Of a stretch of 34,676 nt of DNA, positions 6,266 to 33,948 are shown piece by piece. The notes beneath the pieces were generated by a model, which saw only the letters and a program-made list of their open reading frames with translations, was not told where the DNA came from and ran no database searches. The translations under genes were made by a program, and so were the position numbers. Within the stretch, counting starts at the first letter, position 1. Each line of letters starts with the position of its first letter. Source of the DNA: Selenomonadales bacterium OttesenSCG-928-I06 (GTDB taxonomy: Bacteria; Bacillota; Negativicutes; Sporomusales; Sporomusaceae); the NCBI GenBank assembly GCA_030266395.1, contig JAJDHX010000012.1:1-34676 (forward strand), given 5' to 3'.

Positions 6266-6298
6266 TAAAGCCCAGACAACATTTGTCTGAGCTTTTTA
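6266..6298 (-). terminator. Hairpin terminator downstream of the DedA-like gene
   Basis: AAAGCCCAGACAA-cat-TTGTCTGAGCTTTTT inverted repeat between the two minus-strand genes. Confidence 0.6.
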
Positions 6299-6317
6299 AT
6301 ATTTAAAGAATTGGGTA

Positions 6318-6905
6318 TTAAGATTGAGCAGGTTGTCTGCGAGATCTTCTCCAAAGAGCAACTAATAGTATTATAAGTAAAATTGCTATAACTGAGAGTA
6401 TAATGAATATATCGTAATACTCAGCCATTAAATCCATTGCATAATCTCCAAAGTAATAAATAAGTAGTCCTTCAATCATAAATCTTTTGGCCCTACCTAT
6501 AAATGATACAACAATGAAGACATCCATTCTTATTTTAAAAGCACCTGCAGCGATACTTACGAATTTATAAGGTATTGGCGATAATGCTGCCAAAAATATA
6601 GCCCATACAGCATTTCTTCTCACTTTTTCTTGTATAGGTTCTAAATATTTCTCTGGAATCATTTTTCTTGCGGCAACAATACCAATTTTACGTCCTATAC
6701 CATAGCCTATAAAGCCGCCTACTACAGAGAAAGATGTTGCAGCAATAGCATACAAAATTGCACTGTCAGGATTAGCTAAAGCAAGAGGTATTAAGATTAA
6801 GTCTGGTAATATTGGAGAGATGAAAGATTCAGTGAAAGATGCAATAATAAGTCCATATATTCCCCATTCCAGGAAGACTTCCGTCAAACTGTCGAGAAAT
6901 TCCAT
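6318..6905 (-). CDS. DedA/VTT-domain membrane protein (YqaA-like)
   Basis: SFTESFISPILPDLILIPLALANP, GYGIGRKIG, ALSPIPYKFVSIAAGAFKI; several TM helices. Confidence 0.87.
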   Translation of the reverse strand: MEFLDSLTEVFLEWGIYGLIIASFTESFISPILPDLILIPLALANPDSAILYAIAATSFSVVGGFIGYGIGRKIGIVAARKMIPEKYLEPIQEKVRRNAVWAIFLAALSPIPYKFVSIAAGAFKIRMDVFIVVSFIGRAKRFMIEGLLIYYFGDYAMDLMAEYYDIFIILSVIAILLIILLVALWRRSRRQPAQS

Positions 6906-7068
6906 TTTACACCCTCTTTAAAAAACAATTATGATAGATTTTATTGTACTATAGTAATACTTAGTATGGCAATGTAAAAAAATAATATTTATTTAAAAAT
7001 CAAATAAAAAAATATGAAAATTCTAACAATAAGATTGCCTGGGAATCCAGGCAGCAGTAAGTTTCTCG

Positions 7069-7096
7069 TTTACAAAGTAAACTAATATGATATAAT
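7069..7096 (+). promoter_or_regulatory. Predicted pyc promoter (TTTACA-N16-TATAAT), -35 embedded in inverted repeat
   Basis: TTTACA 7069-7074, TATAAT 7091-7096; inverted repeat GTTTAC-AAA-GTAAAC 7068-7082. Confidence 0.6.
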
Positions 7097-7119
7097 AATG
7101 GGAACAGGAGGAATTTGCC

Positions 7120-10100
7120 ATGAATATGAAAAAAATTAAAACAGTTTTAGTTGCTAATAGAGGCGAGATAGCAATTAGAATTTTCCGAGCATGTAGAGAA
7201 TTAAATATAAGGACAATAGCGGTATATTCAAAAGAGGATGTCTATTCTCTTCATAGATATAAGGCAGATGAATCATATTTGGTTGGTGAAGGCAAGGGGC
7301 CTATAGAAGCCTATCTGGATATTGATGGCATAATAGATATCGCAAAAAAGAATGACGTAGATGCAATTCATCCAGGATATGGATTTTTATCTGAAAATAT
7401 TATGTTAGCTCAAAGATGTAAAGAAGAAGGAATTATTTTCATCGGACCTACTTTAGATCATCTTGATATGTTTGGTGATAAAATAAATGCCCGTGAAAAG
7501 GCTATAGAAGTTGGAATACCAGTAATACCTGGTAGTGATGGTACTGTAAAATCATTAGATGAAGTGCGTGAATTTGCCGAAAAAAATGGTTATCCTTTTA
7601 TAATAAAAGCTGTTCTCGGTGGCGGCGGGAGAGGCATGCGTCTTGTGCGGAGTGAAAAAAATCTTGAAGATGCATATAACTTGACTCGTTCAGAGGCAAA
7701 AGCTGCATTTGGTAATGACGAGATATATATAGAGAAATTTATAGAAAACCCTAAACATATAGAAGTGCAAATTTTAGGAGATGAATATGGCAATTTAATT
7801 CATCTTTATGAAAGAGATTGTTCTGTGCAGCGTCGTCACCAAAAAGTTATAGAAGTTGCACCTTCTCAGGCTTTGAAAGAGGAGACTAGAACTGCTATTT
7901 GTGATGCTGCTGTAAAACTGATGAAACATGTAAATTATGTTAGTGCAGGTACAGTTGAGTTTTTAGCAACATTGGATGGTAAATTTTATTTTATAGAAGT
8001 TAATCCTAGAATACAGGTTGAGCATACTATTACTGAGATGATTACAGGTGTTGATATTGTTCAATCTCAGATTTTAATATCTGATGGTTATAGTTTAAGA
8101 GATGAAGAAGTTGGTAATTTAGTTCAAGAGAATATTCGTTGTAATGGACATTCTATTCAATGTAGGATTACGACTGAAGACCCAACAAATCAATTTACAC
8201 CTGATACTGGTAAAATAATAGCTTATAGAAGTCCAGGCGGTTTTGGGCTAAGGCTAGATGCCGGCAATGCATATGCTGGTTCTGTTATAACGCCTTATTA
8301 TGATTCGCTTTTAGTAAAAGTATCAGTTTGGGGCAGAACTCATAAAAAAGCTGTAGGTAATATGCAGCGTGCTTTAAGTGAGTTTAGAATAAGAGGTATA
8401 AAAACAAATACTGCCTTCTTATATAATGTGATTTCTCACAAAAGTTTTATTGATGGAACATATCATACTGGGTTTTTAGATGAATCTCCAGAATTATTTG
8501 TTTTACCTCAAATAAAAGACAGGGGTACGAAGTTACTTAAATATTTAGCAGAAGTAACTGTAAATGGTCCTCATGGTAAAGGAAGGGCTATAAAACCTAA
8601 ACTTCCTAAAGTGAGAATTCCGGAAAAAATTTCTACAGAAGCACCTAGAGGTACTAAACAAATTCTGGAAGAGCAAGGCCCTGAAGGTATTATTAAATAT
8701 ATGAAAGACCAAAAAAAGGTCTTAATAACAGATACAACTTTTAGAGATGCTCATCAGTCTCTTTTGGCAACTAGGCTAAGAACTTATGATATGTTAGGCA
8801 TTATGGAATCAACCTCTAAACTTATGCATAATTTATTTGCAATGGAAGTTTGGGGTGGTGCCACATTTGATGTTGCTTATAGATTTTTAAAAGAAGATCC
8901 TTGGCAAAGATTAACGCAAATCAGAGAAAAAACACCTAATATTCTTTTGCAAATGTTACTTAGAGCTTCAAATGCAGTAGGATATATGAATTATCCTGAT
9001 AATCTTATTAAAGCTTTTGTTAAGAGAGCTGCCGAAGAAGGTATAGATTTATTTAGAATATTTGATAGCTTAAATTGGCTTCCAGGAATGCAAGTAGCTA
9101 TAGACTCTGTTCGTGATTCAGGTAAAATTGCCATGACAGCAATTTGTTATACAGGTGATATTTTAGATCCAACCAAAACAAAATATGATCTTAAATATTA
9201 TGTGACTATGGCTAAAGAGCTTGAAAAAGCCGGCGGGCATATTTTGAGTATTAAAGATATGGCAGGTGTCTTAAAGCCAGAAGCTGCATATCGTCTTGTA
9301 AGTGCTTTAAAAGAAGCTGTAGATATTCCTGTACATGTTCACACTCATGCAACTACAGGTAATGCTATATATACTTATGCTCGTGCTATAGATGCTGGCG
9401 TGGATATGGTGGATGTTGCTGTGTCATCTATGTCGGGTCTTACTTCACAACCTGGAGCAAGTAGTCTTTACTATGCTCTTGATGGACATGAAAGACAGCC
9501 TGAGATGGATGTTAATGCATTTAATAAAATATCTCATTATTGGGAAGATGTTCGAGCTTTTTATGGTCATTTTGAAAGCAGTCAGTTTTTCCCTAATCCT
9601 GAGGTTTATCATCATGCGATGCCAGGTGGTCAGTATAGCAATTTGAAACAACAGGCAAAAGCAGTTGGTCTTCAAAATCGTTGGGATGAGATAAAAGAAG
9701 CATATGAATTAGTCAATAGAATGTTTGGAGATATAGTTAAAGTAACTCCTTCTTCCAAAGTTGTAGGAGATATGGCTTTGTTTATGGTAGAAAACAATCT
9801 TACTGAAGAAGATGTCTATAATAATGGCGAAACTCTTAACTTCCCTAACTCTGTAGTAGAATTTTTTGAAGGAAAGTTAGGTCAGCCATATCAAGGATTC
9901 CCGGAAAAATTGCAAAAAATAGTGCTAAAAGGAAAGAAACCGATTACTACAAGACCAGGAGAAAATTTGGAACCTATAGATTTCGAAGAGACAAGAAAAA
10001 TTCTAGAGGAAGAACTGAAAGATACTCTTGGCAGATCGATAAGTTATAATGATGTTTTGTCATATTGTTTATATCCTAAAGTATTTTTAGATTGGGCTGA

Positions 10101-11856: not shown

Positions 11857-13239
11857 ATGAAAAAAAGTGTAGCATTAGCTTTAGCTGCTGCTATGTCCTT
11901 AAGTGTAGCTGGTACTGCTCTTGCGAATAATCCATTTAGTGATGTGCCGCAAGGACACTGGGCATATGATGCAGTAGCTCAATTAGAAAAAGATGGTCTG
12001 GTTACAGGTTATGGAGATGGAACTTATCGCGGAGACAGAGCTATGAGCCGTTATGAAATGGCTACAGTAGTTGCTCAACTTGATGATGCAAGTGGCGAAA
12101 ATGCTGAATTAATAAACAAGTTAAGAAGTGAGTTTGCTACAGAACTTTACAATCTTGGAGTTCGGGTAGATAAATTAGAGAAAAATGCTTCTACTATTAA
12201 ATTTAGTGGAGATGGCTGGATTCGTTATCAATCAGGTGGTATAGCGCCTCTTATGTCATTTAAAGATAATCCAAATCAACGCGAAGGAAAACGTTGGCAA
12301 TCACGTATTCGTATTAATATGAATGCTACAATTAATGAAAAAGTTAAATTTTTAGGTAGGGTTAAATATCAAGCTAATACTGCTCGTACAAATCCTAATA
12401 ATAGAGATCCAGCATATTCTTATACTCAAGATACTTTTATGGATAGAGCAGAAATAGTCTGGACAAATGGTACTTTCCAAGGTCGTTTTGGTAGAATTGC
12501 TCCTATGATAGGTCAAGGACTGATTTGGGGAAATAAATCTACAGATGGTGTTTTACTTGGTTATAAAACTAAGAAATGGGATATCTTTGGCGGTGTGCTA
12601 GATTATCGTCCACAAGATCCGCCTCATGGTGACAGTACTAGTGCACTTCCTGCTGCTGCCAGCAAGAATGCTACAGTTGTTAATGTTGGTTATAAATTTA
12701 GTGATAAATTTGGCTTAACTGCTGCGTATTCTAATGGACATAAGTCTGAAGCAGGCACAAGAGACGAGGCTTATCCGTTTGAGTTAATGGCATTTGGTTT
12801 TAGTGCTCAATTGGGCAAAGATTGGAAACTTAATGGAGAATATATAAAGAATGATTCCAAATGGGCTGTTGGCAGAGATGGCAGTAAACAAGATTCGGGT
12901 TACTGGACAAGGCTGACTTGGAAAAATGCTAATATGGCTAAGCCTGGAACTTATTCAATATTTGTCGAATATATGGACCTTGAAGCTTATGCAATTGATT
13001 CTGCAACTTATGGTCATATGCTTAATTTATCAGCAGGTAATGGTTTTAATCCAACACAATATAACGGAACTGGTGCCGCAGGTGCTAAGGGTTATGGCGT
13101 TGTTGCTACTTATGTTGTTGCCAAAAACATTAATATGCAGCTCATGTACCATGATCTTAAACCAACTGACAAAGTTATTAAAGATGCATATGGCGACTAT
13201 AGAAATGTATATCAATTCTATACAAACTTTAGATTTTAA
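11857..13239 (+). CDS. SLH-domain OmpM-type porin (intact copy)
   Basis: Signal peptide MKKSVALALAAAMSLSVAGTALA, SLH domain, barrel ending YQFYTNFRF; GGAGGG RBS. Confidence 0.95.
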   Translation: MKKSVALALAAAMSLSVAGTALANNPFSDVPQGHWAYDAVAQLEKDGLVTGYGDGTYRGDRAMSRYEMATVVAQLDDASGENAELINKLRSEFATELYNLGVRVDKLEKNASTIKFSGDGWIRYQSGGIAPLMSFKDNPNQREGKRWQSRIRINMNATINEKVKFLGRVKYQANTARTNPNNRDPAYSYTQDTFMDRAEIVWTNGTFQGRFGRIAPMIGQGLIWGNKSTDGVLLGYKTKKWDIFGGVLDYRPQDPPHGDSTSALPAAASKNATVVNVGYKFSDKFGLTAAYSNGHKSEAGTRDEAYPFELMAFGFSAQLGKDWKLNGEYIKNDSKWAVGRDGSKQDSGYWTRLTWKNANMAKPGTYSIFVEYMDLEAYAIDSATYGHMLNLSAGNGFNPTQYNGTGAAGAKGYGVVATYVVAKNINMQLMYHDLKPTDKVIKDAYGDYRNVYQFYTNFRF

Positions 13240-25098: not shown

Positions 25099-27990
25099 TT
25101 AGAATGAAAGTCTCCAGCCAGCATATATTTTCCAGGGTTCAGTGAATTTACCACCTTGGGCACGTTCTACACTTAGGTAGATATTATTTCGATCATTAAT
25201 TTGTGATGTATAGCCAACACCATATACCCACCAGTTGTCGCCAAAGCTTTCTGGTATGTCCATGTTGTTTGCAACAATGTTTACATCTCCATCAAATTCT
25301 TTTTCATAAGAAGCTTTTAAATATAAATTAGTCTTCTTTGTTTCATAACCGATTCTAAAGCCTATTCTGCCAAGTGATGATGTGAAACTGTCTACGCCAA
25401 TTTTAAGTCCGTTTGATGCGTGGAAGTTTCCGCCATCTTGGTGTGTATAACTGTATTGAATTTGTGGTTCAACATACCATGCTTCGCCTTGTTCGTTTTG
25501 TTTGAATTTAAAGCGTTTGCCAAGTTCAATTGAAAAGCCCATACCACCAGTACTTACATTGTCACCTGTTACACGGTCACCTACTGTATCAAGCACATTA
25601 AATTTATTTTTCAGCCACATATATTTAAGTAATGCATCAGCATAGAAACCGTTATCTTGGATATAAGTTGTATATAAGCCAACTGTTTTGGAGTCTATAT
25701 CACTATTGCCGCCTGTGCCACTTTTATCCATGCTGTAATTGATATCGCCTTTGCTGTAGCCTATCATACCGCCTATATAAGTGGTACCTTTTTTATTTGT
25801 TTTTATTTTTCTGTCATAACCCATTTGCATACCACTGTAATCCATGTCAAAGCCTCTGACAAAACTTCTGCTGTTAGACTCCATTTGACCGCCATAGCCT
25901 CTGAACCAAAAACCGGCAGCACTTGGGGTATCACGTAAATCGCCTAGTCTTTGAACAAGAGTTTGTGTTTCTGCATAAGAAAGAAGGTAGGCACCCATGA
26001 ATGTGTTGACAGCTGCACTTGCTATAGGACCTGACTTGCCGGTACCATATAGTTCCCAGTTATTTTGGTTGTCTTCTGTACGTCTAAGTCCATACAACCA
26101 TGCACCTATTTCAACATTGTCATTTAATACCTTGAAATCACCATTACCATCACCTGTTTCTACAACAGTAAGTGTTTCTGTTCCATCTGTTTCTGCGCTA
26201 CCTTGATTGTGAATAGATAAAATATGGTAGCCATCTGTGGTTTCAGTAATAATTTTGTCTCCAGTTCCGGCAATGATGTCTGTTTTTAAAGCAAAGTATC
26301 CGTTTGTTGCGTTGCTTGCAGGATTTGCTGTAGATAAATTTTTAATATTTACAGTTGTGCCAAGTTCTGCACTTGTTAAATCTACAGTAGCATTATTAAG
26401 AGTTAAATGTGTAAGAGTGGAATTTCCTGTTACATTCCAAAGTGATTTTGTCATATCAAGAGACAGTGTGGCAGAAGTGCCGGAGAAAGAGGTTTTGCCT
26501 GTAAAAATTGAATTTTCCTCAAACTCAAGGTCAATTACTCCTGTTGATGTTACATTCATATTACCAGTAATATCATAAACTGCTTTACCAGAAACTGTGC
26601 CTTGTTGTCCAGCCGTAATTGCATAAGCATTTTTACTTGAATCAACAGATATGGCTACTGTTCCACTTAAGTTTACTTCACCATTTCTTGTTACTTGGAT
26701 ACCATGTGCATTTTGTCCGCTTGTTATGATGCTAATTCCATTTACATTTATTATGCCTTTTTCTGGAGCTGATGAAAGTACGCCATTACCAGCATTAAGA
26801 CCAATGCCAGAAGTACCTCCAGTTGTGATACTTGTATTTGTAAGGTTTACAGTGCCGCCTCTTGTAGCATAAACACCGTATGCACTTATACCATCTGTTT
26901 TGATTGAGGAACTATCAGCTAAATTAATAATAGAGTCAGCTCCCAGGGAATATAAACCATAAGCACTTGTACCTTGTGTTTTAATGGTAGACTTTTCGCC
27001 AATATTAATTGTTCCACCAGAAATATAATTACTGCCAGCTATAATTCCTGCTTGTACTGCAGAAGAACTGCTTCCTTGTGTAGCAATAGTACTGCCGGCA
27101 CCTATTTCAATATTAGAATCACCATGCCTGCTCCAGACAGCGTGAGCTTTTTGGCCGACTGTGGAGATATCAGCATTTTTGCCTATAGAAATATTTCCTC
27201 CGTAGAGTACATTGTTATTAAAAACCCAACCAGTTACAACTGCACTGGATCCTTCACCAGAGCCGAGGGATTTAATTTCACTATTATCGCCTATTTTTAT
27301 ATAGCCTTTATAAGGATTATCAAAAGGATTAGCTGAGTTATCTGTAGCAGGATTATACTCACTGCTATTGTACGCGTGCACTGCTATTCTATTTCCGCCA
27401 TTAGTTGTTTGACCGCCGGTTTGAGTGATTTTGGCATAATCACCTATTTCTATTTTGCCGCCAGATGATGCACTGACCACTGCTACAGTTGGTCCGTAAG
27501 TATTGCCTTTTATTTCAGCATTATTTCCTATTGTAACAAGACCGTTGCGATGTGCATCTATTGCTGTACCCTCAGATGAAGTTATTTTACTATTGTCTCC
27601 TAAATGAATTTCAGCTTTATAATTAAAATTATAAGTGTCCGCAGAAATGCTAGTGTTTTTGGAGTTGATTTCTGTTGTTCCCAGATTGACAATACCGTTT
27701 CCTTGAGGGATTGTATAATTGTTGTAGAGATATACTTTAATGCCTATTCCGTCAGTATCTATCTTAAGTGCTCCGCCATTTACTATTCCGCCATTAGGAG
27801 AACCAACTAATATTGCTGGATTGCCAGAGGAAAGTGATGGTACAGAGATTATTGAATCGTCAGTTATAGTATAAGTGCTGCCGTCAGTGACTGATATTGG
27901 ATTTTGAGAAGATGCTGCATAACATGGTGTTGTTGCTATAATGCAGCTTATAGCAAGGTATAAAGATCTTTTTTTAGGGACGATTTTCAT
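25099..27990 (-). CDS. Type Va autotransporter: beta-helical passenger plus C-terminal autotransporter beta-barrel
   Basis: Signal peptide MKIVPKKRSLYLAISCIIATTPCYA; repeated IxIGxxAxIxTxG rungs; barrel WFRGYGGQMESNSRSFVRGFDMDYSGMQMGYDRKI ... WKIYAGWRLSF*. Listed ORF extends to 28023. Confidence 0.92.
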   Translation of the reverse strand: MKIVPKKRSLYLAISCIIATTPCYAASSQNPISVTDGSTYTITDDSIISVPSLSSGNPAILVGSPNGGIVNGGALKIDTDGIGIKVYLYNNYTIPQGNGIVNLGTTEINSKNTSISADTYNFNYKAEIHLGDNSKITSSEGTAIDAHRNGLVTIGNNAEIKGNTYGPTVAVVSASSGGKIEIGDYAKITQTGGQTTNGGNRIAVHAYNSSEYNPATDNSANPFDNPYKGYIKIGDNSEIKSLGSGEGSSAVVTGWVFNNNVLYGGNISIGKNADISTVGQKAHAVWSRHGDSNIEIGAGSTIATQGSSSSAVQAGIIAGSNYISGGTINIGEKSTIKTQGTSAYGLYSLGADSIINLADSSSIKTDGISAYGVYATRGGTVNLTNTSITTGGTSGIGLNAGNGVLSSAPEKGIINVNGISIITSGQNAHGIQVTRNGEVNLSGTVAISVDSSKNAYAITAGQQGTVSGKAVYDITGNMNVTSTGVIDLEFEENSIFTGKTSFSGTSATLSLDMTKSLWNVTGNSTLTHLTLNNATVDLTSAELGTTVNIKNLSTANPASNATNGYFALKTDIIAGTGDKIITETTDGYHILSIHNQGSAETDGTETLTVVETGDGNGDFKVLNDNVEIGAWLYGLRRTEDNQNNWELYGTGKSGPIASAAVNTFMGAYLLSYAETQTLVQRLGDLRDTPSAAGFWFRGYGGQMESNSRSFVRGFDMDYSGMQMGYDRKIKTNKKGTTYIGGMIGYSKGDINYSMDKSGTGGNSDIDSKTVGLYTTYIQDNGFYADALLKYMWLKNKFNVLDTVGDRVTGDNVSTGGMGFSIELGKRFKFKQNEQGEAWYVEPQIQYSYTHQDGGNFHASNGLKIGVDSFTSSLGRIGFRIGYETKKTNLYLKASYEKEFDGDVNIVANNMDIPESFGDNWWVYGVGYTSQINDRNNIYLSVERAQGGKFTEPWKIYAGWRLSF

Positions 27991-28042
27991 TATTATATAT
28001 TTCTCCTTATTTATATTAAACAATATTAATTATTATTTTAAT

Positions 28043-28260: not shown

Positions 28261-28343
28261 TTGAAACATAAGAATATAATATTTAAGTAGATATTTTCAA
28301 TTTTGTTTAATTTAAAAATAAAGTGAAAAGGAATTTGATAATT

Positions 28344-29414
28344 ATGAAATCAAAAGTTTATTTTATTCCTATAAAAGATAGTGCTTCTGTGGCAGAACAA
28401 ACAGAAAAAATGAAAAAAATTGTTGATTTTTCTCAAGCTGAAAATATTGTTTCTCCTGAAGATTTTGTTGCTGTAAAATTTCATGTAGGAGAAGGAGAAA
28501 ATAAAACCAGAGTAGCTCCTGAACTTATAAAAGTAGTTGTAGATAAAATAAAACAGAAAAAAGGTCAGCCTTTTTTAACTGAAACATCTACTCTTTATAA
28601 AGGTGAAAGAGAAAATGCAGTAAAACATATTATGCATGCTCATAGACAGGGCTTTGGTATAGAAAGTGTTGGAGCTCCCTTTGTAATGTCTGATGGTTTA
28701 CTAGGCAATACTGAACATGAAGTGGAAATAAATTGTGAACTTAATAAAACAGTCAAAATAGCTAAAGAAGTTGTTAATACTGATGCTGTTATTGTTGTAT
28801 CTCACCCAACAGGACATGTTATTGCCGGGGTTGGAGCATGTATTAAAAATCTTGGAATGGGATTTGCCAGCAGACAAGGGAAAATGCGTCAACATTCTCA
28901 AATGAAACCAGAAGTTAAAAGCAGTTGTCGTTTTTGTAAGAAATGTATTTCTTGGTGTCCTGAGAGTGCTATTACAGAAAAAGACGAGAAAGCTTACATA
29001 GATAGCAGCAAATGTATTGGTTGTGGTGAATGTATAGCAGTATGTAATTTTGATGCTGTTACTTATGATTACAACAATGATTCTGAATTTGTGCAAAAAA
29101 GCATGGCTGAATATGCTTATGGCGCAGTTAAAGATAAGAAAAACAAGATTTTTTATTTCAATGTGTTGATTAATATGACAAAAGAATGTGATTGTTATGC
29201 TGAAAATCAACCTAAGCTTATACCTGATGTAGGAATTTTAGCTTCAAGTGATCCTGTAGCAATAGACAAAGCTACATTAGATCTTACTTGTGAAGCTAAC
29301 GGACAAAATCTTGGTGAAATTGCTTTTTCATATCATGATCCGCTTATTCAAATTAAGCATGCTGAGAAAATTGGTATGGGATCATCTGAATATGAATTAG
29401 TTGTTGTAGAATAA
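28344..29414 (+). CDS. DUF362 domain protein with 2x[4Fe-4S] ferredoxin insert
   Basis: FVAVKFHVGEGENKT, CRFCKKCISWCPESAI and CIGCGECIAVCNFDAV; AAAGGA RBS favours ATG 28344 over listed GTG 28323. Confidence 0.9.
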   Translation: MKSKVYFIPIKDSASVAEQTEKMKKIVDFSQAENIVSPEDFVAVKFHVGEGENKTRVAPELIKVVVDKIKQKKGQPFLTETSTLYKGERENAVKHIMHAHRQGFGIESVGAPFVMSDGLLGNTEHEVEINCELNKTVKIAKEVVNTDAVIVVSHPTGHVIAGVGACIKNLGMGFASRQGKMRQHSQMKPEVKSSCRFCKKCISWCPESAITEKDEKAYIDSSKCIGCGECIAVCNFDAVTYDYNNDSEFVQKSMAEYAYGAVKDKKNKIFYFNVLINMTKECDCYAENQPKLIPDVGILASSDPVAIDKATLDLTCEANGQNLGEIAFSYHDPLIQIKHAEKIGMGSSEYELVVVE

Positions 29415-31854: not shown

Positions 31855-32127
31855 TTAAATATCTGTAGTTAATGGTTGATTTTTTTCTTTGTATTTTTTT
31901 CTGGTGGCTTCGCCGCCTCTTATATGTCTTTGGGCTTTGTTTGTTTCTAAAACATTTTTGACCTTTAAAGCAAGTTTTTTATTTATTTCAGGTAATCTTT
32001 CGATCATGTCTTTGTGAACTGTGCTTTTGCTTACTCCGAATACTGATGCCGCTTGTCTGACAGTTTCATTAGTATTTAAAATATGTTCACAAATATCCAA
32101 AACTCTTTTTCTTATATGTTCTTTCAT
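31855..32127 (-). CDS. spoIIID: SpoIIID-family sporulation transcriptional regulator
   Basis: MKEHIRKRVLDICEHILNTNETVRQAASVFGVSKSTVHKDMIERLPEINKKLALKVKNVLETNKAQRHIRGGEATRKKY; GGGG-type RBS precedes ATG at 32127. Confidence 0.92.
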   Translation of the reverse strand: MKEHIRKRVLDICEHILNTNETVRQAASVFGVSKSTVHKDMIERLPEINKKLALKVKNVLETNKAQRHIRGGEATRKKYKEKNQPLTTDI

Positions 32128-32194
32128 ATTATTGCTTTTCCCCCTCGTACCCTTGTAATCCTTATTAAAATGTATATGCAGGGAGGGGTAAAAA

Positions 32195-32368
32195 ATGCTC
32201 AACTTAATAGTGTTTTATCTTGCGATTATTGTGCGAGATTTGCTAAATATAGTTAAAAAGACAGGGGAAATAAAGAGTTGTTTAGCTATAATAATTTTTT
32301 TATTTTTTATAAATAAGACAAAGAAAAAAACCGTAATTCTAATTACGGTTTTTCAGATTATTTTTTGA
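32195..32368 (+). CDS. Candidate small hydrophobic ORF (57 aa), divergent from spoIIID
   Basis: GGGAGGGG 7 nt before ATG; MLNLIVFYLAIIVRDLLNIVKKTGEIKSCLAIIIFLFFINKTKKKTVILITVFQIIF*; runs into an antisense terminator, so uncertain. Confidence 0.3.
   Translation: MLNLIVFYLAIIVRDLLNIVKKTGEIKSCLAIIIFLFFINKTKKKTVILITVFQIIF
32326..32353. terminator. Terminator downstream of NapH-like gene
   Basis: AAAAACCGTAATT-ct-AATTACGGTTTTT. Confidence 0.85.
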
Positions 32369-33221
32369 TTGTAAAACCAGAATCGATTGCTTTGTGTGGA
32401 CATGCCTTTTTACAGTCGCCGCAACGAATACATTCCGGGTCATTTGGTTTTTCAAATACAGATATATTTAATTTGCAGCTTGTCTGACAAGCTCCGCATT
32501 GTGTGCATTTTTCTTTGTTAATATTAAAGTTATATAAGGAAATAGGATTAAATAATCCGTAAATTGCTCCCAGAGGGCAGATATATTGGCAAAAAGGTCG
32601 GAACACAATAATTGATAATATAATTGTGGCTATAAGCAGGAAAAATTTCCAGGCAAATAACCAACCTAAAGAGTCTCTAATTCCTTCATTTGTAGTTGCC
32701 AGTGGAATTCCTGCCATTAAAGTGCCTGCAGGACAAATAAATTCACAAAACCAGGGCTGCCCTTGGCCTATTACATCTATGATGAAAATAGGCAGTATTA
32801 TCACAAAAAGAATAAGGATTACATATTTTAAAAATCTTAAAATCATATGCCCGGGCAGTGTTTTTAATTTTTTGCTAAAAGGAATTTTATAAAGTAAATC
32901 TTGAAAAAATCCAAAAGGACATAACCAGCCACAAACAAGACGTCCCAGAAAAACACCTGTTATTATTAAAAAACCTACTATATAAAAGGAAAAATTAAAA
33001 TTGCGGCTGCTTAAAATTGCTTGCAGAGAGCCGATTGGGCATGAACCTAATGCCCCTGGACAAGAGTAACAACTCAGTCCTGGGACACAAACAAATTTTG
33101 ATTTTCCTGTATAAATTTTTCCTTCAATAAAGCCAACTATATATCCATTAGTTACAAGCGAAAAAACAAGCTGTACAAGTCTTTGTAGTTTAAGATTTAG
33201 AAAAGCAAATAAATCAGCCAA
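32358..33221 (-). CDS. NapH/MauN-type membrane polyferredoxin (4Fe-4S binding)
   Basis: FVCVPGLSCYSCPGALGSCPIGSLQ, CGWLCPFGFFQDLLYKIP, CQYICPLGAIYGLFN, CTQCGACQTSC and CIRCGDCKKACP; TTG start overlaps upstream stop by 8 nt. Confidence 0.92.
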   Translation of the reverse strand: MADLFAFLNLKLQRLVQLVFSLVTNGYIVGFIEGKIYTGKSKFVCVPGLSCYSCPGALGSCPIGSLQAILSSRNFNFSFYIVGFLIITGVFLGRLVCGWLCPFGFFQDLLYKIPFSKKLKTLPGHMILRFLKYVILILFVIILPIFIIDVIGQGQPWFCEFICPAGTLMAGIPLATTNEGIRDSLGWLFAWKFFLLIATIILSIIVFRPFCQYICPLGAIYGLFNPISLYNFNINKEKCTQCGACQTSCKLNISVFEKPNDPECIRCGDCKKACPHKAIDSGFTIKK

Positions 33222-33360
33222 TACCTATACACTCTAAACAGACATTGATTGCTTTAATTAAGACAGTGTAATGTTCTTTTCTGGATATACCTACAAAAAC
33301 GAATACTATACCTGTTGTCAATATAGTTAGCCTAATTAGATTTTTTCTCGATATATTCAC
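33214..33360 (-). CDS. 48-aa membrane-anchored CXXC protein (CD1871A-like); absent from supplied ORF track
   Basis: GTG start immediately after the TlpA stop: MNISRKNLIRLTILTTGIVFVFVGISRKEHYTVLIKAINVCLECIGIG*; one TM plus CLEC motif. Confidence 0.8.
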   Translation of the reverse strand: MNISRKNLIRLTILTTGIVFVFVGISRKEHYTVLIKAINVCLECIGIG

Positions 33361-33948
33361 CTATTTTACTTCCTTTAAGGTTTTATCAACGATTTCTTTC
33401 CATTCAGACATGCTTCTGGCACCAACATAAGATTGACCAACTATATTTCCGCTTTTATCTACAAAAATTGTTTCTGGAACAAGGTTAACATCTTCTAATT
33501 TCGCATTTATTAAATCTTCAGATGGGATTAAATGAAGGTAATTGGCATTTGTTTTAGTTATAATTTCTTTAGCCAGCTCTACTTGTTCTTGCGAAAGAGA
33601 GCCGTCGTCATTAAGAACATCAACAACTATTCCTATAACCTGAAAATTTTTGTCTGCATATTCTTTATTGAGTTTTCCTAAATCAGGCATTTCTCTTATA
33701 CATGGCGGACAAAAAGTTGCCCAGATATTAATCATTGTTAAGTCATGATTTTTGAAAATATCTTGATTAACTGCATTGCCGTTTATGTCATGTGCTGTGA
33801 AAGAGCCTAATGTAGAAGAGGCTTGGGCAGTTTGAACAGGAGGCGGGTTATTATTTTTATTAGCCTCATTTTTTGATGCACATGAAACTAATAATAAAGC
33901 TGTTATTAAAGTAATTATTGTTATAAAAAGTTTTCTGTTTCTTTTCAT
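33361..33948 (-). CDS. TlpA-like thioredoxin-fold lipoprotein
   Basis: Lipobox LLLVSC|A; active site INIWATFCPPCIREMPDLGKLNKEY; cis-Pro region NLVPETIFVDKSGNIV. Confidence 0.93.
   Translation of the reverse strand: MKRNRKLFITIITLITALLLVSCASKNEANKNNNPPPVQTAQASSTLGSFTAHDINGNAVNQDIFKNHDLTMINIWATFCPPCIREMPDLGKLNKEYADKNFQVIGIVVDVLNDDGSLSQEQVELAKEIITKTNANYLHLIPSEDLINAKLEDVNLVPETIFVDKSGNIVGQSYVGARSMSEWKEIVDKTLKEVK

Follow-up and report, generated by a model that had tools for sequence, protein, structure and literature searches.

In the analysed stretch of 34,676 nucleotides from Selenomonadales bacterium OttesenSCG-928-I06, called the window below, a TlpA-like lipoprotein, a 48-residue protein with a CXXC motif and a polyferredoxin are encoded one after the other. 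The question raised by this locus is whether the three proteins constitute an undescribed path which carries electrons across the membrane to extracytoplasmic thiols, as an earlier, sequence-only reading had proposed, and which of them form its core.

Gene organisation and family assignment

The three genes are contiguous, co-directional and all located on the minus strand. The CXXC ORF starts with a GTG immediately 3' of the TlpA stop codon TAG (33363-33361), and the TTG start of the polyferredoxin overlaps the end of the CXXC ORF by 8 nt; the tight packing originally proposed was confirmed. The features are:

33361..33948, minus strand: TlpA/ResA-like thiol-disulfide lipoprotein, 195 residues (Redoxin PF08534, 57 bits; AhpC-TSA, 47 bits)
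33700..33711, minus strand: CPPC active site of TlpA (C80, C83), WATFCPPCIREMP in translation
33370..33376, minus strand: Shine-Dalgarno-like AAAGGAA, 9 nt 5' of the GTG, from reading the sequence
33214..33360, minus strand: CD1871A-family CXXC microprotein, 48 residues, one TM helix plus amphipathic tail (NF040920)
33229..33240, minus strand: CLEC motif, residues 41-44; C41 is the position exchanged for TGA (predicted selenocysteine, Sec) in relatives
32358..33221, minus strand: NapH-like polyferredoxin, four TM helices, 287 residues (Fer4_5, 72.2 bits; Fer4, 40 bits)
33039..33089, minus strand: outer loop 1 with C45, C51, C54 and C61 (CVPGLSCYSCPGALGSC)
32919..32933, minus strand: inner-face CGWLC (C97, C101), kept in 171/171 relatives
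32733..32747, minus strand: outer loop 3 with CEFIC (C159, C163)
32577..32591, minus strand: inner-face CQYIC (C211, C215), kept in 171/171 relatives
32400..32507, minus strand: C-terminal 2x[4Fe-4S] ferredoxin motif with 8 Cys (PF00037), kept in at least 167/171 relatives
32325..32354, minus strand: hairpin terminator 3' of the polyferredoxin, which could serve both strands

The first protein combines a Redoxin/AhpC-TSA fold with a WCxxC-type motif (its site reads WATFCPPC) and a membrane anchor (lipobox LVSC); it is a TlpA/ResA lipoprotein, and its relatives in the PDB are TlpA and ResA. The 48-mer had no match in Pfam. It scores 60.7 bits with the NCBIfam model NF040920 (cut-off 32) and carries a C-terminal CxxC, which makes it a full member of the CD1871A family; the gene, said to be lost by a 60-residue ORF cut-off, is already covered by this model and is not wholly missed. 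The family name gives no function or partner, and the model includes neither Sec forms nor divergent Cys forms nor the link to the polyferredoxin. In the literature searched, we found no paper on CD1871A or on this combination of genes. With regard to the earlier reading, one correction is that its CXXC family had been named before.

For the polyferredoxin, Pfam gave three Fer4_5 stretches and two Fer4 stretches. Being polytopic, with PF12801 (Fer4_5) and a C-terminal ferredoxin, it belongs to the NapH-like superfamily; its scores are below the NapH/MauN cut-offs (TIGR02163, 74.3 versus 213 bits; NF007013, 60.2 versus 234 bits). A DsbD_TM domain (PF02683) was not matched in this protein by Pfam, and neither Pfam nor NCBIfam gave a match to the FtrB catalytic domain in the proteins of the window. 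Genes for S-layer homology proteins, a pertactin-type autotransporter and SpoIIID (747-1943, 11857-13239, 25099-28023 and 31855-32202) suggest that the host is a diderm, spore-forming and Negativicutes-like member of the Bacillota; a true periplasm is therefore probable. Upstream of threonine synthase, the opposite strand encodes another Fe-S protein, with DUF362 and a 4Fe-4S ferredoxin (28323-29414).

Conservation and pairing of the genes

When GTDB representative contigs were scanned with only the polyferredoxin as query, 80 loci were obtained from Bacillota, Spirochaetota, WOR-3, Thermodesulfobacteria, Deltaproteobacteria, Riflebacteria, Actinomycetota and others. The block of two to three genes was found again in more than 100 genomes of many phyla, and this recurrence is not due to chance. 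The CXXC ORF adjoins the polyferredoxin in 78 of the 79 assessable loci (71 called by HMM, 3 by eye, 4 as TGA form); L109 was left out of the count, as its contig begins inside the gene. The sole exception is L098; elsewhere in its genome (G305), a UXXC gene stands alone (L201) and both genes of a Cys-type pair are present (L215).

Co-occurrence was determined in 300 genomes from the phylum of the window (sample 1) and 247 genomes from the Desulfobacterota-like phylum of L099 (sample 2). In sample 1, all 39 genomes with an NF040920 match have a strong polyferredoxin match, i.e. 150 bits or more, the next best match scoring 76 bits; vice versa, 42/42 polyferredoxin genomes have a CXXC ORF, including three apparent exceptions where the ORF is present. 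For sample 2, the corresponding values are 73/73 and, if UXXC is accepted besides CXXC, 76 of 77. No CXXC genome without polyferredoxin occurred in either sample. Thus, the pairing of CXXC protein and polyferredoxin is near-obligate; the gene-neighbourhood search proposed with the earlier reading gave a near-perfect result for these two genes, and the micro-ORF, conserved across phyla, is genuine.

An adjacent or fused TlpA was found in 53 of the 80 loci: it is located upstream in 23 and downstream in 24 cases, and in 6 cases, all from one clade, it is fused to the C-terminus of the polyferredoxin, so that Fer4_5 and Redoxin domains lie within one chain. Since the gene order changes and fusion occurs, a functional link is more likely than an inherited neighbourhood. 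In the remaining 27 loci, a standard adjacent TlpA was not found by HMM. Of the proposed three-gene unit, the CXXC protein and the polyferredoxin are the core, and TlpA is the commonest but not a universal partner. The annotation of Peptoclostridium acidaminophilum shows these neighbours beside its CD1871A-family gene.

Several further observations were made in the neighbourhoods. MsrA and MsrB were considered as operon partners and rejected, as none occurred among the neighbour clusters of the 80 loci. In L034, a second TlpA (6293-7336) has an N-terminal rhodanese domain. An OmpR-type regulator and a sensor kinase are encoded just upstream of the module in the Anaerococcus loci L058, L065, L070, L077 and L089. 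The CXXC ORFs of rumen Clostridia (L081-L088, L093) carry 100-230 additional N-terminal residues with no Pfam match.

A predicted selenocysteine form of the microprotein

An in-frame TGA takes the place of the first CxxC cysteine in 30 loci from 28 genomes; in these loci, a TGA occurred at no other position of the microprotein. The ORFs of L099, L103, L107 and L112 read L-TGA-L-S/T-C-I-G; the Cys form L079 reads ICLECVGIG. Most of the Sec forms have a SECIS-like hairpin after the TGA, which is absent from the Cys forms; in the consensus, a 6-bp stem carries a GGGT-type loop across the stop codon, with GC/AU exchanges. The folding energy of 20 nt beginning 15 nt past the TGA was on average -9.1 kcal/mol for 24 distinct Sec sites and -1.1 kcal/mol for 139 Cys forms (p=5e-15), and the contrast holds among high-GC loci (p=3e-11). 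Covariation of the SECIS alone (RNAalifold, pair counts) is modest because half of the stem codes for protein; the energy contrast is the better test. SelD scored above its cut-off in all six genomes tested, and in four of them selD itself contains a TGA. At least four Sec/Cys exchanges are required on the tree, one of them, in L231/L234, being an independent origin; the hairpin of these two is weaker and differently shaped.

We therefore predict that the Sec forms constitute a selenoprotein family. Their sequences had no match among the NCBIfam selenoprotein models, and the family is absent both from the table of the 2026 selenoprotein review (PMC13188914) and from the deep-Sep families that the main text of PMC12013277 describes. 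Relative to that review table, the predicted Sec family is new. The TsoA LULAxC selenoprotein (NF045695) is likewise small and has an L-U-L motif; however, its spacing is U-L-A-x-C instead of U-L-x-C-I-G, and there was no HMM match. As Sec nearly always replaces a redox-catalytic Cys (PMC13188914), C41, with which CLEC begins in the window, is most likely catalytic and not a structural ligand. This is evidence which the earlier reading did not have, and the thiol-redox role proposed there has survived the tests.

Three candidates for recoding were discarded. The TAA in the match of G405 is a codon upstream of the Met, and the TGA codons in the polyferredoxin matches of G369 and G317 are a normal stop or belong to a disrupted frame. 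A covariation of Sec with the exchange of Cys159 for Ser, seen in 23 of 24 cases, was rejected: the cases stem mostly from one clade, a test with independent pairs had no power, and the independent Sec lineage L231/L234 retains Cys159.

Among the Sec loci, the Desulfobacterota-like ones have neighbours that include TlpA, TlpA-like/TPR proteins, multiheme cytochromes and a CxxCH-containing sensor kinase; L200 shows the canonical order UXXC-polyferredoxin-TlpA. Near the Sec module of L099, L103, L109, L190, L191 and L224, two conserved neighbours are found: a multiheme cytochrome, with 8-13 CxxCH where the copy is complete, and a protein that resembles histidine kinases and has a single CxxCH. 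In L192, L195 and L207, TlpA-like/TPR proteins having WATWSPRS-type sites without CxxC are encoded beside Sec microproteins and multiheme cytochromes.

Membrane arrangement and electron route

Alignments of 109-171 relatives were used to assess the polyferredoxin. C51, C54, C61, C97, C101, C163, C211 and C215 are invariant in 171/171 sequences, and the eight ferredoxin cysteines are nearly so (at least 167/171). C45 is present in 154/171, the rest, except two, having a Cys shifted by one or two residues; C159 is replaced by Ser in 33/171. The protein has four hydrophobic segments, and its second loop is positively charged, which argues for N- and C-termini inside; consequently, C45-C61 and C159/C163 would point outward and C97/C101 and C211/C215 inward. 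NapH has been described with four TMDs and with clusters at the cytoplasmic side (PMC5449189). An AlphaFold model of a natural polyferredoxin-TlpA fusion contains an extra helix (307-330, pLDDT 75) between the ferredoxin and TlpA domains, which fits a ferredoxin inside and a TlpA outside. No solved structure covering the membrane part was found; Foldseek matched only the ferredoxin part to the PDB. Thus, the two ferredoxin clusters noticed at the outset are complemented by two invariant sets of cysteines, presumably one at each face of the membrane.

In order to model the complex, an artificially tethered chain was derived from L034, consisting of the CXXC ORF with its stop read as Ser, a linker of about 50 residues, and the polyferredoxin; its alignment comprised 88 rows, only 10 of them paired. 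AlphaFold gave pLDDT values of 90-98 over most of the microprotein, below 50 for the linker, and a pTM of 0.81. As this value was reached despite about 63 disordered residues, we infer that the microprotein has a defined position relative to the polyferredoxin. Inter-protein covariation was computed as APC-corrected mutual information from 163 paired sequences. Of the top 40 pairs of the CXXC tail, outer loops 1 and 3 account for 24 (p=5e-5), and cytosolic parts are avoided, with only 3 pairs (p=5e-6); these p-values ignore shared ancestry and are indicative. The top pairs, drawn from few columns, involve polyferredoxin residues 161, 53, 56, 159 and 45. Taken together, conserved cysteines, topology, model and covariation lead to a predicted position of the CXXC tail at the outer face of the polyferredoxin.

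With respect to the donor, menD was above its cut-off in none of 43 carriers including the host of the window, and a strong MqnA/D match occurred in 9 of 43; 33 of the 42 carriers from sample 1 have neither, and the same is true for the host itself, whose assembly is 72% complete. The values for sample 1 (0/42 and 9/42) suggest that quinol is not the general donor. The suggested check for ccdA/dsbD gave no match to PF02683 in the whole, 72% complete assembly. DsbD/CcdA is rarer in carriers (17/42 versus 191/258, raw p=4e-5); however, this negative association vanishes within families (CMH OR 0.58, p=0.53), and the data argue weakly for a polyferredoxin system that substitutes for CcdA/DsbD.

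We consider it probable that the operon encodes a quinone-independent, thiol-reducing conduit through the membrane; this reading builds on the gene unit, the invariant cysteines, the Sec/Cys exchange, the contact signal at the outer face and the TlpA fused behind an extra helix. A low-potential donor in the cytosol, most likely reduced ferredoxin, would feed the C-terminal 2x[4Fe-4S] domain. Electrons would then pass to a cluster or thiol site at the inner face (CGWLCP and CQYICP) and to an outer-face site, presumably a cluster, formed by C51, C54, C61 and C163 with C45/C159 beside it. From this site, electrons would reduce the C-terminal CxxC (in relatives, UxxC) of the microprotein, which is membrane-anchored and would be docked there, and an electron pair could go on to the CPPC of TlpA by thiol-disulfide exchange; TlpA, in turn, would reduce disulfides of putative clients outside the membrane. 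The outward direction is the presumed one.

The TlpA-like protein next to the module has lost its CxxC at some Sec loci, and about a third of all loci have no standard adjacent TlpA by HMM; the acceptor is perhaps not TlpA in every case. Carried further, the CXXC protein and the polyferredoxin could be a general outward electron module with TlpA as an accessory and c-type cytochromes, another reductase or a metal as main acceptor. The loci lacking an adjacent TlpA (27/80), the multiheme cytochromes with 13 CxxCH adjoining Sec loci and the variety of reductases served by NapH-like proteins (PMC8238504) are in favour of this idea. However, TlpA on either side of the core, and fused to it in one clade, indicates selection for keeping them together, the Sec/CxxC chemistry points to thiol exchange, and the cytochromes are plausible clients whose haem sites (CxxCH) are reduced. 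We regard such a module as unlikely. Since anatomy does not fix the direction, the chain might also run in reverse, the polyferredoxin oxidising the thiols of TlpA and CXXC for a cytosolic acceptor, which would make it an anaerobic analogue of DsbB/VKOR in disulfide formation; a quinone-independent oxidant could be useful in the many carriers where quinone synthesis was undetected. This appears quite improbable: ferredoxin clusters of low potential make poor oxidants, Sec lends itself to strongly reductive chemistry, and, to our knowledge, all characterised TlpA/ResA-type proteins with WATxCPPCxxEMP act as reductants. That the CxxC of a structural subunit ligates a metal or an Fe-S cluster shared with the polyferredoxin would suit the conserved, C-terminal tail and its predicted docking at the Cys-rich outer loop, but is highly improbable given Sec at the first Cys in 28 genomes, its repeated exchange with Cys and its overwhelmingly redox-catalytic use (PMC13188914).

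The conduit proposed here can be likened to a DsbD/CcdA output plus FTR chemistry on a NapH-like chassis. It belongs to neither DsbD/CcdA nor FTR, and its polyferredoxin is NapH-like, but not a NapH. With NapH/MauN and NapH-like proteins, for which outward electron transfer has been proposed (PMC8238504), the polyferredoxin shares four TM helices, CxxxCP motifs and the C-terminal 2x[4Fe-4S]. In contrast to NapH, it has the invariant outer Cys set, scores far below the TIGR02163 cut-off, is accompanied by the CXXC microprotein and TlpA instead of an FMN-binding protein or NapG, and would not be quinol-linked in most carriers. The presumed output, cytosolic electrons delivered to extracytoplasmic TlpA/ResA, equals that of DsbD/CcdA; however, the DsbD_TM domain is missing, the Fe-S chassis replaces the intramembrane Cys pair, and the donor would be ferredoxin and not thioredoxin. 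The proposed Fe-S-to-disulfide chemistry resembles that of ferredoxin-thioredoxin reductase, whose Sec form is listed in the review table (PMC13188914); FtrB, however, is soluble, has a different fold and no sequence match to the proteins of the window.

These findings propose a role for an unstudied family of microproteins and for a clade of NapH-like proteins, and add a selenoprotein candidate of a kind which automatic gene callers truncate or miss. The two-protein core is conserved in gut Clostridia, Spirochaetes, Desulfobacterota and candidate phyla, and offers a candidate answer to the question of how extracytoplasmic thiols are reduced in obligate anaerobes which have neither CcdA/DsbD nor quinones. 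We give about even weight to the broader view that it represents, beside DsbD/CcdA and DsbB/VKOR, a third link between the thiol pools inside and outside the membrane: an Fe-S wire, driven by ferredoxin, which crosses the membrane and ends in a docked thiol/selenol microprotein of 45-60 residues, which would be widespread in quinone-less anaerobes and would include an unlisted selenoprotein family.
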